Assembly (NCBI RefSeq): GCF_014281055.1
Contig: NZ_JACRSE010000001.1
Location: forward strand, 496,001-560,000
Length of the DNA: 64,000 nt
DNA from: Fluviispira vulneris
GTDB taxonomy: Bacteria; Bdellovibrionota_B; Oligoflexia; Silvanigrellales; Silvanigrellaceae
Direction of reading: 5' to 3'
In this document: piece by piece, positions 21,955 to 31,026 of the stretch
How positions within the stretch are numbered: the first letter of the stretch is position 1
How the letters are laid out: each line of letters opens with the position of its first letter
The notes under the pieces: model-generated
Databases searched by the model: none
What the model was told of the DNA's origin: nothing
The model's input: the letters and a program-made list of their open reading frames with translations, nothing else
Program-made: the position numbers and the translations under genes

Positions 21955-23256
21955 ATGGCAAAGTTTAGATATATCGATGCAGAAGAAAATAGCCGTGATC
22001 CTTTCGCAAGTGAAAGCGACACAACCAATGAATTCGAAGAATTGCTTAAAGATGACAAAAATATTCCAACAGCCCGTCGCTACCGTATGGGCGAGTCTGT
22101 TACAGGCGCAGTGATTTCAGCAAGTTCTGAATTTATATTTGTCGACCTTGGTGGGAAAAGCTCTGGCTCCCTCTCAACAGAAGAATTCACAAGTGCAGGT
22201 CTTTCTACCCCAAAAGTGGGTGAAAACATTTCCGCATTTGTACGTTCCGACAATGGATCCGAGATTTTATTGACACGCACATTGAGACGCAATGAAGCAG
22301 ATGACTCTTTGTTAAGAAATGCTTACGAAGCCCGCATTCCAGTGGAAGCTAAAGTGGAAAAAGCAATTAAAGGAGGTTTTGAAGCAGTCATTGGGGCAAA
22401 ACGTTGTTTTATTCCACTTGGACAAATGGACATAATGCATTTTGACAATCCTGAAGTTTATGTTGGCAATACCTTTAAATTTTTAATTTCAGAATTCAAA
22501 GGCCGTAATGTTGTATTGACACGTAAAGCAATTTTACGCGAAGAAATGGATAGCAAAATTCAAACTGTTCTCCAAGGTCTTGAAATTGGTCAAAGCCATG
22601 TTGCGACTATCACGCGTCTTGTCGATTTTGGTGCCTTTGCATCTATCGATGGGGTAGAAGGTCTCATACCATTGAGTGAACTTGGTTGGAAACGCGTTAA
22701 AAAAGCCGATGAAGTCGTTCGTTTAGGTGAACAAGTCACAGTTAAAATCATTAAAATTGAACGCAGCCCGAAATTAAAAATTGCTCTAAGTCTCAAAGAT
22801 GCAGGCGAAGATCCTTGGATTGCCAATGCTACACGTTTGCACCCAGGTGAGGTATTACAAGGGACCGTCGTGCGCATGATCGACGGAGGTGCTTTTGTCA
22901 ATGTGGCTGAAGGTGTGGATGGTCTTGTTCCAATTAGCCAGATTACTTGGGAAAAAAGGATTAATCATCCCAAAGATATCTTGCAAATTGGCCAAGCTGT
23001 AAAAGTGCATGTCCTCACAGCGGACTTGGGAGCTCATCGTTTAAGTCTTTCTATTAAGGGTCCAATGCCTGAAGAACTTGCAAATAAATTCAAAGGCAAA
23101 AAGCGCGATGAATCTTCACTCAGCGAAGAAGAAAAAAATCTTATGAAACAGTGGGAAGATTATAGAGCAAACGAAGCAAAAGTCTTTACACCTGCGAATA
23201 GAGAAGATACAAGTATTTTTGCTGCTGCTTTCAACAAAGCAAGTAAGAAAAAGTAA
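21955..23256 (+). CDS. S1 RNA-binding protein with four S1 repeats
   Basis: The 433-aa protein has four S1/OB-type repeats: about 46-115 (MGESVTGAVISASSEFIFVD), 128-195 (weaker), 214-285 (VATITRLVDFGAFASIDGVE) and 300-371 (LQGTVVRMIDGGAFVNVAEG). The acidic N-terminus and Lys-rich tail have no match I know. It should bind RNA in the cytoplasm. It lies directly upstream of the six-repeat ribosomal protein S1 gene, separated by a terminator, and is probably a paralogue or truncated relative of S1 with a regulatory or ribosome-linked job. Its codon use is ordinary, unlike the strongly biased rpsA next door. Confidence 0.85.
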   Translation: MAKFRYIDAEENSRDPFASESDTTNEFEELLKDDKNIPTARRYRMGESVTGAVISASSEFIFVDLGGKSSGSLSTEEFTSAGLSTPKVGENISAFVRSDNGSEILLTRTLRRNEADDSLLRNAYEARIPVEAKVEKAIKGGFEAVIGAKRCFIPLGQMDIMHFDNPEVYVGNTFKFLISEFKGRNVVLTRKAILREEMDSKIQTVLQGLEIGQSHVATITRLVDFGAFASIDGVEGLIPLSELGWKRVKKADEVVRLGEQVTVKIIKIERSPKLKIALSLKDAGEDPWIANATRLHPGEVLQGTVVRMIDGGAFVNVAEGVDGLVPISQITWEKRINHPKDILQIGQAVKVHVLTADLGAHRLSLSIKGPMPEELANKFKGKKRDESSLSEEEKNLMKQWEDYRANEAKVFTPANREDTSIFAAAFNKASKKK

Positions 23257-23292
23257 CAAATCCTATACAGTTTTACATAAACATGCTAGGTT

Positions 23293-23322
23293 TGTGCGGG
23301 TTCGAAACTCGCACAGTTTTTT
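23293..23322 (+). terminator. Rho-independent terminator after the four-S1-repeat gene
   Basis: TGTGCGGGTT (23293-23302) pairs with AACTCGCACA (23306-23315) through one G-U pair, with a 3-base loop, and is followed by a T-run from 23317. It ends transcription 37 bases after the stop and separates the two S1-domain genes. The inner part (GGGTTCGAAACTC) looks like a tRNA T-arm, but no tRNA body surrounds it. Confidence 0.75.
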
Positions 23323-23415
23323 ATCATTTAACATAGCCAAATTATTGGCTTTTCCCGTAGAATTGAAAGTTTCAAACTTCAGTTGATACGGCCCATAGAA
23401 AGGTATTTTGCTCAT

Positions 23416-25179
23416 ATGGCAAGTCTTCACTCCGACGTCTCAAAGAAAAAAGTTAATTACAACTCCCTCGAATGGCTTGACGAAGACGTAGATTTCTTAT
23501 CTCAAGAAGAAATTCCTGATGGTTTTGCTGCTCTTTTTAAAGCTCAAGAAGAGTCACAAAATGTTGTTAAAGAAGGCCAAGTTGTTAAAGGCCGTATTAT
23601 CGAAATCAAAGACGAAAATGTTGTTATCGACATTGGTCACAAATCTGCAGGCGAAATCCCAAAGAGCGAATTCACAGCAGAAAACGCTGTTTTCTCACTT
23701 AAAGTTGGTGATGTTGTTGACGTTTTTGTTGACGTTTTTGAAGACGACGAAGGCGAGCTTGTTCTTTCTAAAGACAAAGCAGACATGCTTAAAGCTTGGG
23801 ATCGTATCTCTGAAGCATTTGAAAAAGACGAACTTGTTGAAGGTAAAATCGTTGGTCGCGTTAAAGGTGGTCTTTCTGTCGATATCGGTGTGAAGGCATT
23901 CCTTCCTGGCTCCCAAGTTGACCTTCGCCCTGTGCGCAACCTTGAAAAACTTCTTGGTCAAGTTCTTCAATTCAAAATCATTAAATTTAACAAAAAACGT
24001 GGAAACATCGTTCTCTCCCGTCGTGTTCTTCTTGAACAAGACCGTGAACGCATGAGAAGCGAAACACTCAAAGGTCTTCAAGTTGGCTCCTCCATGATCG
24101 GTATTGTTAAAAACATTACAGATTACGGTGCGTTTATTGACCTTGGCGGAATCGACGGACTCCTTCATATCACAGATATGTCTTGGGGACGCCTCAACAG
24201 TCCATCTGAAATCCTCAACGTTGGTGATGAAATCAACGTTAAAGTTCTCAGCTTTGACCCAGGCAGCAACCGCGTTTCTCTCGGCTTAAAACAATTGCAA
24301 AATGATCCATGGGTTTCTGTTGCTGAAAAATATGCTTCCGCACAACGCCTTCGTGGAAAAGTCGTTAGCTTAACTGACTACGGCGCATTTGTTGAACTCG
24401 AACCAGGCGTTGAAGGTCTTATCCACGTTACAGAAATGACTTGGAACCGTCGTATCAAACACCCAAGCAAAATCGTTAACATCGGTGACGAAGTTGATGT
24501 TGTTGTTTTAGCTGTTGATCTCGAAAACCACCGCATTTCTCTTGGTATGAAACAAACTGAACCAAATCCTTGGGAAATCGTGACACAAAAATACCAAGTT
24601 AATGATGTTATTCGCGGCAAAATCCGCAACATCACTGATTTCGGAATCTTTGTTGGTATTGAAGAAGGTGTTGATGGTCTTATCCATGTTTCTGACATCA
24701 GCTACACAGAACGCATTAAGCACCCACAAGACCTTTATAAAAAAGGCGACGAAGTGGAAGCTAAGGTTCTCCAAATCGACGTTGAAAACATGCGCTTCTC
24801 CCTTGGAATCAAACAACTTGGCGAAGATCCATACGAATTGGCTGCTAAGAAATTTGTTCCTGGTACAAAAGGCAAAGGCAAAATCACACGCATCGCTGAA
24901 TTCGGCGCATTTGTTGAAATTGCTCCAGGCGTAGAAGGACTCATTCACACAAGTGAACTTGAAAATCCAAATGCAACTGTTGACACTGAAATCGACTATG
25001 TTGTTCTCAGCGTAGACTTTGCAGAACGCCGTTTTGAACTTTCACAAAAAGCTGCAACTCGCGGCCTTGACGAAACTCACAACAAGGCTATTCAAGCTGC
25101 TCTCAACAACGAAGCTGCTCCACAAAACAGTTTTGCTGAAGCTTTTGCTCGCGCAAAGGCAACTAAAGACAGCAACTAA
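23416..25179 (+). CDS. rpsA: 30S ribosomal protein S1
   Basis: A 587-aa protein with six S1 repeats, the usual number for proteobacterial-type S1, at roughly 53-121, 138-203, 223-292, 308-377, 394-463 and 480-547; repeats 3 to 6 each carry the DYGAFIDL/DFGIFVGI type strand followed by EGLIHVT/DGLIHVS. S1 binds mRNA leaders and delivers them to the 30S subunit. The reading frame is open from TTG 23383, but GAAAGGT lies upstream of the ATG at 23416, chosen here. Codon use is strongly biased (GTT, CTT, ATC, AAC), as expected for a very highly expressed gene and distinct from its neighbours. Confidence 0.96.
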   Translation: MASLHSDVSKKKVNYNSLEWLDEDVDFLSQEEIPDGFAALFKAQEESQNVVKEGQVVKGRIIEIKDENVVIDIGHKSAGEIPKSEFTAENAVFSLKVGDVVDVFVDVFEDDEGELVLSKDKADMLKAWDRISEAFEKDELVEGKIVGRVKGGLSVDIGVKAFLPGSQVDLRPVRNLEKLLGQVLQFKIIKFNKKRGNIVLSRRVLLEQDRERMRSETLKGLQVGSSMIGIVKNITDYGAFIDLGGIDGLLHITDMSWGRLNSPSEILNVGDEINVKVLSFDPGSNRVSLGLKQLQNDPWVSVAEKYASAQRLRGKVVSLTDYGAFVELEPGVEGLIHVTEMTWNRRIKHPSKIVNIGDEVDVVVLAVDLENHRISLGMKQTEPNPWEIVTQKYQVNDVIRGKIRNITDFGIFVGIEEGVDGLIHVSDISYTERIKHPQDLYKKGDEVEAKVLQIDVENMRFSLGIKQLGEDPYELAAKKFVPGTKGKGKITRIAEFGAFVEIAPGVEGLIHTSELENPNATVDTEIDYVVLSVDFAERRFELSQKAATRGLDETHNKAIQAALNNEAAPQNSFAEAFARAKATKDSN

Positions 25180-26329: not shown

Positions 26330-26629
26330 TTAAATATAGAACCCGAGCGAGCTTCCCACGGTTTGAATCACAATCATTAAACAACCGACAGCAAGGATGA
26401 GAACCATAGGTGAAAGATCGTAATAACCCTGTTGGTTCCTCACTAAAAGTTTTGGAAACTTTTTGACTAAAGCACGACAGGGTGGAGCTGTAATTGCATT
26501 GAGAAAACCAACAATTGGGTTCAAAGGATTTGCGCCTACTAAACTTAACACACCTGTAATAACTAAACAAAGCATATAAAAATAGAGTAAATAATAAGCT
26601 ATTTTAAAAATAATTTCGATTAAAAGCAT
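26330..26629 (-). CDS. YggT-family integral membrane protein
   Basis: From the ATG at 26629 (GGGGAGA just upstream) the 99-aa protein shows the YggT pattern: two hydrophobic segments around a loop containing NPLNPIVGFLNAITAPPCRA, which matches the family's NP..FL...T.P block, then SPMVLILAVGCLMIVIQTVG. Members are small inner-membrane proteins linked loosely to division or osmotic stress; the biochemical role is unknown. The frame continues upstream to 26683, but that start has no good ribosome site. It converges on sppA. Confidence 0.85.
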   Translation of the reverse strand: MLLIEIIFKIAYYLLYFYMLCLVITGVLSLVGANPLNPIVGFLNAITAPPCRALVKKFPKLLVRNQQGYYDLSPMVLILAVGCLMIVIQTVGSSLGFYI

Positions 26630-26768
26630 ATTCTCCCCAAAATAAAGAGCAGTCAAAAAAATTATAATTAGTTTTAAAGACAATGAAAAACTTTTAGAGT
26701 CAAATTCTTCTCAATTTAGAATTAATCGATAACTCCGAAAAGCAATTTAGATCATAGTCACTTAAAGA

Positions 26769-27821
26769 ATGGACTCAATAAAAGTGAAAACAGCAAGTAT
26801 TGTATTACCACCCAAAACAACAGTAGTTCAAGAAGGAGATGAGACAAAAGGTATTTATGTGATCCAAGAAGGAAAAGTCGAGTTAATCAAAACAGTTGAA
26901 GGATTTGAAATCAGTTTAGGTGAAATATCACGCGGTGACATAATTGGGATGAACACTCTCATGAGCCGTGAGAGGCACGTCTTGACTGCAAGAACGATCG
27001 TTCAGACAGTCGCTCTTTTTTATTCGACAGATTCCATTATTCCGTTTTTTAATGATGCAAATCCAATTGTCAGCACATTCATTAAAGCAATTTGTGAACG
27101 AGTCAATTATTTAAGTGACCTAGCAATTGAAGGAAAAATGAATGAAAAAAAACTCGAAAAAAATTCGGGTACTGCTCATCAACATGCTGCACAACTTGCT
27201 CATTTACTTGCTGCTTTTGTCAGACAAGGAACTATAGAACATGATGATAATAAAATTTACCCACTCAAATCATTTTTAATTAATGGTGAAATAATTCTAT
27301 TTAGAAAGTTTGATTATTTGGAAAAAATCTTTACAGCCTTTTCAACAAGTGGGTTGATTAAAGTTGTTTTCGATAAAAAATATGGAAATATTATTCTAAA
27401 ACCCAATGTACAATTGATCGAAGATTTCGCCATATTCTCAACAAATGTAGGAAAAAAAGGCATTGCTGCATTTGTCCCTATCAAATGCCATAATTGGATG
27501 AGCGGACTTATACGCATTCACAAACGAAATAAAGATAACAACGGTGCTTTTCCGAAGAAAGATTTTCCAAATATGATCAATCGTGAACTCGGTCGACAAG
27601 ATGGTGAAGAGATAATGCATAAATTGATGGGTTATAAGCTCATTACAGAAAAAGGCGCAGATGAAGGCAGCAAACGAATTTTCTATAATGCCATTCAATT
27701 ACAGAAAAGGATTATCTTTGAAAGCATTTCACGGGCCGTAAACGACCTCGACAGTGGCAAAGCTGTTGAGAAAAAAGAAGGAGGTAAAACCGAGGAGAAA
27801 AAAGGTTCTACTCGGAGTTGA
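26769..27821 (+). CDS. Cyclic-nucleotide-binding-fold protein, first of a paralogous pair flanking cheV
   Basis: The 350-aa protein starts with a cNMP-binding fold (about 10-115; PPKTTVVQEGDETKGIYVIQ, then GDIIGMNTLMSRERHV). The canonical Glu of the phosphate-binding cassette is replaced by Met61, so cNMP binding is doubtful. A His/Gln-rich helix HQHAAQLAHLLAAFVRQG (137-154) follows, then two segments that could be winged helices (YLEKIFTAFSTSGLIKVVFD and a GRQDGEEIMHKLMGYKLI region). The tail is Lys/Glu-rich (about 330-350). There is no CRP-type DNA-binding helix-turn-helix. It is paralogous along its whole length to the gene at 28893. It likely works with the CheV protein encoded 61 bases downstream. 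Confidence 0.85.
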   Translation: MDSIKVKTASIVLPPKTTVVQEGDETKGIYVIQEGKVELIKTVEGFEISLGEISRGDIIGMNTLMSRERHVLTARTIVQTVALFYSTDSIIPFFNDANPIVSTFIKAICERVNYLSDLAIEGKMNEKKLEKNSGTAHQHAAQLAHLLAAFVRQGTIEHDDNKIYPLKSFLINGEIILFRKFDYLEKIFTAFSTSGLIKVVFDKKYGNIILKPNVQLIEDFAIFSTNVGKKGIAAFVPIKCHNWMSGLIRIHKRNKDNNGAFPKKDFPNMINRELGRQDGEEIMHKLMGYKLITEKGADEGSKRIFYNAIQLQKRIIFESISRAVNDLDSGKAVEKKEGGKTEEKKGSTRS

Positions 27822-27882
27822 GTGAAGATTACCTGAAAAATCCCGATAGGAATTAGAAAAGTGAAACTTTTAGGGAGTTGAA

Positions 27883-28896
27883 GTGGTAAATATCGGCAGA
27901 CCCATGTTTCAAGTGGGTAGCAACATTTTTGAACTGATTGAATTCACTGCGACGAAGACAGGTGTTCCTGGTGCTTCTGACCGCAAAACCCCGATATTAT
28001 ATGGAGTCAATGTTGCTAAAGTGAGAGAAGTTATCAGGCTTCCCACTATTGTACCCTGCTTAACCAATGCGCCAGAAGTTCTAGGAGTCTTTAATCTCAG
28101 AGGACTGCCTATCCCCGCAATCCATCTGGCAAAAGCTTTAGGTTATGATGAAGAACCCGTGACACCTACAAGTCAAGTCATAGTGACAGAGTTTTCAAGC
28201 CGCCGTGCGGGTTTCGTTGTTGCAGGTACTCGAAGGATTCGGCGGGTGAGCTGGGATAAAGTTTTACCTCCGTCAAGCGATGCGTTTAATACAATCACAG
28301 GAATGATGCTGATCGAAAATCAAGATTTTATTTTTATTCTCGATTTTGAACGCATTCTTTTAGACATAGAAGGACGCAGCACAGGCCAAGGATCTTCTGG
28401 TTACAGTGCAAACGAAGGAATGATCCAACCTGCAGGAGGAGGAGCACAAGCTCCACCCGCTCAGCAAGGAGGAGCACCGGCAGGGAAAGGAACAAAACCA
28501 CTTATCCTGGTTGTCGATGACTCGCCTACCGCTCGGCGTGCGATTTGTGATATGCTGCGGGGTATGCAGCTTGATATAATAGAATATACAAATGGTGAAA
28601 GTGCTTGGAAAGACTTGCTGAACGCTGAAGAAGGCTCAGATCTGAGTAAAGTGCAACTCATTGTCAGTGATGTGGAAATGCCAAAACTAGATGGTTATTC
28701 TCTAGTAAAACGTATCCGCGGCAACGAAAAACTGAAGAAAATGCCAATTATTCTTCACTCCAGTTTAACAGGAGATGTTAACCGCGATCGTGCTAAGCAA
28801 GCAGGAGCAGATGCTTATGTTGGTAAACTGAATCGCAAAGAAATTGTGGAAGCCCTCAAAGCAGCACTCCCACCCACTTGGACTGGCGCAGCATGA
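27883..28896 (+). CDS. cheV: CheV-type chemotaxis coupling protein (CheW domain plus receiver)
   Basis: The 337-aa protein has a CheW-like domain (about 10-165; GVNVAKVREVIRLP and GVFNLRGLPIPAIHL), a Gly/Ala/Pro/Gln-rich linker (165-205) and a receiver domain with the full acceptor set: Asp212-Asp213 in VVDDSPTARR, Asp263 in SDVEMPKLDGY and Lys315 in VGKL. CheV couples chemoreceptors to CheA and tunes the coupling by phosphorylation. Start is GTG at 27883 with AGGGAG before it. The 3' end overlaps the next cNMP-fold gene by ATGA, indicating translational coupling. No cheA, cheY or receptor gene is adjacent. Confidence 0.94.
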   Translation: MVNIGRPMFQVGSNIFELIEFTATKTGVPGASDRKTPILYGVNVAKVREVIRLPTIVPCLTNAPEVLGVFNLRGLPIPAIHLAKALGYDEEPVTPTSQVIVTEFSSRRAGFVVAGTRRIRRVSWDKVLPPSSDAFNTITGMMLIENQDFIFILDFERILLDIEGRSTGQGSSGYSANEGMIQPAGGGAQAPPAQQGGAPAGKGTKPLILVVDDSPTARRAICDMLRGMQLDIIEYTNGESAWKDLLNAEEGSDLSKVQLIVSDVEMPKLDGYSLVKRIRGNEKLKKMPIILHSSLTGDVNRDRAKQAGADAYVGKLNRKEIVEALKAALPPTWTGAA

Positions 28897-29852
28897 AACC
28901 AGATACCTTAACCTTTGCCCCTCAACAAATTATATTTAATGAAGGTGAAGAGAGTAATGGTATTTATCTAATTCAAGAAGGTGTTGTTGAAATCTTTCGT
29001 GTGCGTGAAGGAACAGAAGTTAATCTGGGTACCTTAAAACAAAACGATGTTTTAGGCACACTCACTGTTTTGTCAAAAGAACCCAGAACAGCATCGGCAC
29101 GCGCGACAGCAAAATGCACAGTCCTTTTTTTTCAAAGCCAAGGTCTTAAAGAATCTTTTAAGGAAATTCCTCTCTGGAGCCAAGCTGTTATAAAAGATGC
29201 CATTGGGCGAGTTAAACATGTCAATGAATTACTCATAGAAGCAAAATTAAATGAAAAGAAACTTTTGCGCACCGTAGGTTCTTCTCATCACCATTCTGCA
29301 CAACTTGCTTATTTATTAGCATCTTTAGTGCGCAAAGGCGCTATTTTAAATGATACTCAGGTTTCTATTTACCCAACGAAAGATTTTATAACCTGTGCAG
29401 AATTAATTCTAATGAAAAAGTATTCATATTTGGAACAAATATTTAAAGCATTTAATGAATGTGGTTTGATAAAAGAAATGGATGATAAAAAATATGGCAA
29501 GATATTGATGAAACCAAACCCTGGTTTAATGGAAGAATTTGCAGCATTTTCACTTAATATTGCAAAAAAAGGATCGCTTACATTTCTCTCACAAAAATTT
29601 TATCCTTGGATGAGTGCTGTTGCAAGAATCAGCAAAAAAAATAACAATCAAGAAAATTTTAAACGCTCTGATTTAGCGCTATTATTACAAACAGAACTTG
29701 GACGTGAAGATGGTGAATTTATCGTTTCAGAGTTAATACAGCATGGAATATTAAGCGAAAAAGACAATAATGTGAATTTTTCGACCAATAAATTACAAAA
29801 AACAGTTGTTTTCGAAAGCCTTTCAAGGATTTTAAAAGATATTACGCTTTAG
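28893..29852 (+). CDS. Cyclic-nucleotide-binding-fold protein, second of the paralogous pair flanking cheV
   Basis: The 319-aa product is co-linear with the protein at 26769: a cNMP fold (APQQIIFNEGEESNGIYLIQ, then NDVLGTLTVLSKEPRTASAR), a matching HHHSAQLAYLLASLVRKG helix, YLEQIFKAFNECGLIKEMDD and a C-terminal GREDGEFIVSELIQHGIL. The cassette keeps Arg in PRTAS but has Thr where the ribose-binding Glu is expected. It has no DNA-binding HTH like CRP. The start ATG overlaps the cheV stop (28893-28896), and lacks its own clear ribosome site, so it depends on cheV translation. An in-frame TTG at 28878 lies inside cheV. Likely a stoichiometric partner of CheV. Confidence 0.86.
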   Translation: MKPDTLTFAPQQIIFNEGEESNGIYLIQEGVVEIFRVREGTEVNLGTLKQNDVLGTLTVLSKEPRTASARATAKCTVLFFQSQGLKESFKEIPLWSQAVIKDAIGRVKHVNELLIEAKLNEKKLLRTVGSSHHHSAQLAYLLASLVRKGAILNDTQVSIYPTKDFITCAELILMKKYSYLEQIFKAFNECGLIKEMDDKKYGKILMKPNPGLMEEFAAFSLNIAKKGSLTFLSQKFYPWMSAVARISKKNNNQENFKRSDLALLLQTELGREDGEFIVSELIQHGILSEKDNNVNFSTNKLQKTVVFESLSRILKDITL

Positions 29853-29973: not shown

Positions 29974-31026
29974 ATGAAACATCATATTAAATTAATTACG
30001 TTTGCTTCAATTGTTTCTGTTTCTCTTGTTGGATGTGGAGAAATATTGTATAAATTACGCACTGAAAAAAAATGTGATCCAAATAATATTGAAAAAGGCA
30101 TATACGCTGGATGTGAAATAACTGCAGAAGTCGAGAATAAACTACCCGAAATATCATCAAGTGTTTTAATTAGAACGAGTTATCAAGAAACTGAACGTGC
30201 TAGCATATGTACAGGTAATTTTATTGCAGAAAATATAATTTTAACGGCAGGCCATTGCCTTATAAAGAAAAACGAAGAAAATGAAATTTTAAAAGTAGTA
30301 CAAATAGCGATCGACAATAAAAAAACAGTGCATACCCATTATATGGCAAAACAGATAGATGACCCTGTTTATATTGTTCATCCGCATTATAGTGCCAATG
30401 CTAAATACGTCAAAGAAACAAAAAACAAAAATAATTCAAAACCATTTGATATAAGTGATTTTGCAGATCTTGCACTTATTTATTCGACTTACAGTGCCAC
30501 TGAATTAAATGCAAAAATAATTTCACTAAGTGAATCCACAAAAGCCAATGAAAGAGTGTATTTCGTAGGATACGGTCAATTGACCGATACAGATGATGAT
30601 TCAAAAATTAAAGAAAAAAAATGGGGCACAGCTTATACGACTCAAATCTACAATTTGGATATAAATAAAAAACGATTCCGAGATAAAAATAATAAATTTT
30701 GGGATATCATTGATTACTGGAACAAACATTTGTCTAAATATATCTCTGGGCAATATAAAACAAAATCACCTGCTGAAAGTTTTCTTTTTACCAACGGTTA
30801 TAAAAATGAAGAAGGAATTTGCAGTGGTGACTCAGGGGGAGTTATTTTTATCAAACGAAACAATGAATTTTTAGGTGCAGGAGTTGTGCATGCTTCTTCT
30901 GGAGAATGTTCTGAGAAAGTAAGTTTGAATATGAGAATTGGTGCTTATAAAGATTGGATTTCGAGTGAAAGCAAAGAATTAGAAAGAATACATCGAACAG
31001 AACAAAGAATCCAATTTGTTCCTTAA
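29974..31026 (+). CDS. Trypsin-like (S1) serine protease, lipoprotein
   Basis: The 350-aa protein has a signal peptide with lipobox SLVGC (Cys21), so it should be lipid-anchored. A complete S1 triad is visible: TAGHC (His93), DFADLALI (Asp165) and GICSGDSGG (Ser287), with Cys pairs at 79/95 and further positions that suggest disulfides. About 60 residues between the Asp and Ser blocks (about 205-265) are charged and longer than in trypsin. It likely cleaves extracellular or surface proteins. AAGGT lies five bases before the ATG at 29974. The 3' end overlaps convergent pstB by four bases. Confidence 0.92.

Follow-up and report, generated by a model that had tools for sequence, protein, structure and literature searches.

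Why should a gene for the chemotaxis protein CheV lie between two genes whose products carry a cNMP-binding fold, and is this arrangement a signalling unit? The question is raised by a stretch of 64,000 nucleotides of the Fluviispira vulneris genome (hereafter the window), in which gene A, cheV and gene B follow one another on the forward strand. CheV is commonly regarded as a coupling or adaptation protein within the chemosensory array. The original prediction saw in the three genes a module in which CheV works with a symmetric pair of cNMP-fold partners.

Organization of the locus

A (positions 26769-27821, + strand) encodes a protein of 350 aa that matches the Pfam family cNMP_binding (E 2e-13). 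It is followed by cheV (27883-28896, +), which starts with GTG and encodes 337 aa matching CheW (5e-25) and Response_reg (1.5e-17), and by B (28893-29852, +), which starts with ATG and encodes 319 aa, again with a cNMP_binding match (2e-18). The cheV stop and the B start share the 4 nt ATGA (28893-28896, +). A and B are full-length paralogues with 41% identity. The coordinates, strand and lengths originally given for the three genes are all correct, as are the ATGA overlap and the view of A and B as full-length cNMP-fold paralogues flanking cheV, and the observation of a three-gene cassette is confirmed. Searches of the open-access literature gave no paper on this layout, in agreement with the original remark that no described system with exactly this order was known. 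The gap between A and cheV is 61 nt, indicating that A is part of the cluster, yet without overlapping cheV. Purifying selection acts on A, cheV and B alike (dN 0.01-0.13 versus dS 0.6-1.8 when related species are compared), which are thus working, maintained genes. A scan for promoters and terminators gave a result near that of shuffled sequence.

Upstream of A, a divergent gene encodes a YggT-family membrane protein (26333-26632, - strand). It stays upstream of cheV in most of the Silvanigrellaceae and probably does not belong to the signalling unit; the other neighbours are mostly not the same in the window's genus as elsewhere in the family. Two adjoining genes further upstream (21955-25179; 433 and 598 aa) match ribosomal protein S1 models. 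Just 3' of B lies a gene for a trypsin-like putative lipoprotein (29974-31026), which is 44% identical to its Fluviispira copy, against about 78-98% for its neighbours, and so diverges far faster; its homologue is missing at the Spirobacillus locus. In two species of the window's genus, two extra genes are found between B and the trypsin gene (L032:9487-10402, L033:9203-10124), and those at L032:9487-10402 match the MarR and anthrone-oxygenase families.

Conservation of cheV-B and late origin of A

Adjacency of cheV and B is found in all 13 reasonably complete Silvanigrellaceae genomes, which represent five genera and include the named members Fluviispira multicolorata and Spirobacillus cienkowskii. 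These are the window's own genome and G002-G013, the 72%-complete assembly G001 being excluded; adjacency is direct in 12 of them, while in G012 the two genes sit at the ends of contigs and are oriented as expected for neighbours. The 4-nt overlap of cheV with B (ATGA or GTGA) is present in 11 of 12 family genomes and is replaced by a 9-nt gap in G011. Across the family the identity of B drops to 32-34%, and its place beside cheV is nonetheless kept.

Gene A, in contrast, is limited to the window's genus, where it is present in 7/7 genomes (G001 left out). In the tree, A and B are sister clades that together form one clade at 100/100 support, nested within the family, which places the duplication on the stem of the window's genus. 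The stem branch of A is 0.81 and that of B 0.23. The long A stem is consistent with a changed role of A, whereas B, in its position and branch length, fits the ancestral single copy. The synteny check proposed with the original prediction is therefore borne out family-wide for cheV-B, whereas the A-cheV-B order belongs to the window's genus only. The conserved unit is cheV-B, and the symmetric A/B pair, from which the original prediction started, is secondary: A-cheV-B results from a late duplication, and the other genera are single-copy. An old symmetric three-gene unit is ruled out by the tree and by these single copies, and a family-wide loss of A rather than a late gain is disfavoured by the union of A and B in one clade at 100/100.

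G001, which belongs to the same genus, is devoid of A and B, of any detectable CheW-domain protein and of YggT. It possibly lost chemotaxis together with the cheV operon; the assembly is 72% complete and YggT is missing from it too.

Fold and architecture of A and B

AF2 models built from family alignments (mean pLDDT 89 for B and 85 for A) predict that both proteins consist of a CNB fold, a long helix and then two winged-helix-like modules. B comprises a cNMP-like domain (residues about 1-125), followed by winged helix 1 (about 131-206) and winged helix 2 (about 234-295); the C-terminal tail of A is disordered. The original description of A and B as cNMP-fold proteins hence holds for the N-terminal domain and had missed the two winged-helix modules at the C-terminus.

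In a Foldseek search of the PDB, the top match of both A and B, ahead of CRP-type regulators, is Bd2879 (9sfa), which is aligned over essentially the whole chain (332-342 columns; E 8e-15 for B and 2e-14 for A). TM-scores of 0.39-0.45 indicate the same parts with the domains arranged differently. The family sequence profile, when run against the PDB, matches Bd2879 at CNB positions 6-120 only, so that the kinship rests on architecture.

No HTH_CRP match was found in A or B with Pfam. The segments predicted to form helix 3 of the winged helices lack a strongly basic character, being acidic or hydrophobic (e.g. GREDGEFIVSELI in B), which makes DNA binding by A and B not obvious. Wing 1 carries conserved Lys/Arg (DKK-Y/W-G), and winged helix 2 is net positive in all copies. 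An assignment to Pycsar-type defence effectors was rejected: the PADLOC matches span the CNB part only, and the C-terminal part is predicted to form winged helices.

State of the ligand pocket

Neither A nor B has the canonical cAMP-binding cassette made up of ribose Glu and phosphate Arg. In the alignment, none of the 20 copies has the CRP-type ribose Glu, in place of which B and the single copies have Thr (Thr56 in B) and A has Met, Ile or Leu. The phosphate Arg (Arg65 in B) is kept in B and the single copies, and is His in every A. Arg106 of the C-helix is invariant, and B has in addition Asn/Asp111. Distant members elsewhere in the class are mostly without the Glu and with the Arg. A simple cAMP receptor was discarded as the default reading because the Glu is gone throughout and the Arg is also gone in A. 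To judge from these residues, cAMP sensing by A is unlikely and A probably binds no nucleotide at all, while B may bind an atypical one. The cNMP domain would be, at best, an atypical nucleotide sensor.

Other CNB paralogues (L087, L088 and L148) retain the GE...R form. Two of these, in two further Silvanigrellaceae genera, are encoded divergently from a REC-TPR gene (L087:1833-4471, L088:3453-6244); with its intact GE...R, this separate paralogue is another case of a CNB protein paired with one that has a receiver domain. At another locus (L076:5929-7062, G000:C5), a CNB domain is fused in a single protein to an Rce1-like CAAX protease membrane domain.

CheV and its chemosensory setting

The window protein is a CheV, with an N-terminal CheW domain and a C-terminal receiver domain in one polypeptide. 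Its receiver has the residues of the phospho-acceptor site (D212, D213, D263, S293/S294 and K315). The site is fully intact in 10/12 family genomes, the exceptions being G009, with a conservative D212E, and G013, with D213N, S293A and S294G. Genome-wide, 26 CheW-domain and 30 MCP matches amount to a large chemosensory repertoire. A second CheV (357 aa) is encoded within a CheY-CheW-STAS-CheA-CheV-CheB cluster (L077:4229-9967); that genome therefore also has a conventional CheV.

The homologous CheV of other families in the class forms the sister clade to that of the Silvanigrellaceae. There, a CNB gene beside cheV was found at 0/17 loci. Instead, one homologous gene lies directly upstream of cheV at 16/16 of these non-family loci that have upstream sequence (L102-L118, e.g. 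L110:694-2451), and Pfam called it REC-PilZ in the four tested. On the 3' side, the loci tested have a gene for an Rce1-like CAAX protease, followed in one locus tested by a BFD-like ferredoxin gene. The Silvanigrellaceae retain a REC homologue of the REC-PilZ protein elsewhere in the genome; in the two examined, no PilZ domain was detected. To judge by gene order alone, CheV seems to have exchanged one partner, a putative c-di-GMP receptor, for another, a CNB-winged-helix protein.

What may CheV and B do together?

Our tentative proposal, to which we give somewhat less than even weight, is that a translationally coupled signalling operon is at work here: CheV would bind B and in this way turn array phosphorylation into a regulatory output, and A would adjust B, probably by forming a heterodimer with it. 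The CheW domain of CheV would dock in chemoreceptor-CheA arrays and CheA would phosphorylate the receiver domain. Binding of CheV to B (and A) would then let array activity set the location of B or its ability to act. B would act as a dimeric regulator shaped like CRP, with the tandem winged helices binding DNA, which is the more likely case, or another protein. A, with its eroded pocket and long stem, would pair with B without sensing a ligand itself, most simply in an A-B heterodimer. What is observed here is gene order, predicted fold and residue state, and the conserved synteny supports CheV-B coupling. The predicted signalling module of CheV with cNMP partners is in this respect partly supported; its partners, however, resemble putative transcription factors of the Bd2879 type and not simple cNMP proteins.

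A and B might instead share a transcript with cheV so that dosage or timing is matched, and have no physical contact with CheV. Translational coupling is common among genes of one process and a complex is not required for it; the overlap in 11/12 genomes fits this explanation equally well, since it may mean shared dosage only. Nevertheless, adjacency and overlap persist over five genera with little other synteny around them, which is more than one would usually expect from loose co-expression, and we regard shared expression alone as a somewhat unlikely account. Information could also flow the other way, with the CNB-winged-helix protein as an input to the array that senses a cyclic nucleotide or other small molecule, binds CheV and tunes receptor coupling. 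Phosphate Arg65, C-helix Arg106 and Asn/Asp111, all kept in B, would suit a sensor of this kind, and the REC-PilZ homologues encoded directly upstream of the non-family cheV at 16/16 loci, being putative c-di-GMP receptors, may tune the array likewise. Such an input role is unlikely, given that the ribose Glu is lost in all copies and the Arg in every A, and it leaves the two winged helices unexplained.

The winged helices bear on another explanation, namely that they are a protein-protein module and that A and B are structural array or polar adaptors which do not bind DNA. The acidic or hydrophobic helix-3 segments agree with this, as does the CheV-linked neighbour in other families, a non-DNA-binding protein. 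The conserved Lys/Arg of wing 1 and the net positive charge of winged helix 2 in all copies argue against it, and the nearest architecture is that of a putative transcription factor, Bd2879; an adaptor role seems quite improbable to us. A bolder form of the preferred reading, in which CheV couples the array to B, has CheV tether a CRP-shaped, nucleotide-independent regulator to arrays, phosphorylation directly controlling expression. By swapping partners (PilZ in most families, CNB-winged-helix in the Silvanigrellaceae), CheV would serve as a hub at which second-messenger-type effectors dock and can be exchanged. We consider this form doubtful.

In more general terms, the conserved and translationally coupled CNB-winged-helix partner, together with the conserved REC-PilZ partner in sister families, points to CheV as a protein able to connect arrays with second-messenger-type regulators. 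The cheV-B layout hints that arrays may feed straight into an unusual regulator. The duplication, with the phosphate Arg lost in one copy, provides a natural test of sensor versus partner roles.

Comparison with known systems

The closest counterpart of A and B is Bd2879 of Bdellovibrio bacteriovorus (PDB 9sfa, CASP16 target T1298), a putative transcription factor composed of an N-terminal nucleotide-binding domain, HTH1 and HTH2, whose own phosphate-binding cassette is altered (PMC12750041). A and B share with it the N-terminal CNB domain, the long C-helix, the two winged helix-turn-helix modules and an altered phosphate-binding cassette. They differ in that Bd2879 has a C-terminal zinc-finger motif and is without the phosphate Arg, which is present in B. 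No report tying Bd2879 to cheV was found in the literature, and cheV-B gives these little-studied Bd2879-like proteins a genetic context. The CNB domain of Bd1971, a cAMP-sensing EAL phosphodiesterase (PMC6717892), is close in fold to those of A and B. Unlike them, Bd1971 has an EAL output domain and retains the ribose-sensing Glu58; the phosphate Arg67 is present as well (PMC12750041).

Like the enterobacterial CheV (PMC4742279), the window CheV combines a CheW domain with a C-terminal receiver domain that has its phosphorylation residues. Its setting is different: the neighbour is a CNB-winged-helix gene (REC-PilZ in other families of the class), without a linked cheA or receptor. Nothing relevant on CheV and CNB partners turned up in the open-access literature searched.

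With the CRP/FNR regulators, A and B have in common the CNB domain, the C-helix and the C-terminal winged helix. They fall outside that group, with two winged helices where CRP/FNR proteins have one, and with neither an HTH_CRP match nor the ribose Glu. In the Pil-Chp / CyaB / Vfr system of Pseudomonas aeruginosa, chemosensory output reaches a CNB transcription factor via diffusible cAMP from a cyclase. In cheV-B, by contrast, canonical cAMP binding looks unlikely, and the genes of the chemosensory protein and of the CNB protein are physically coupled.
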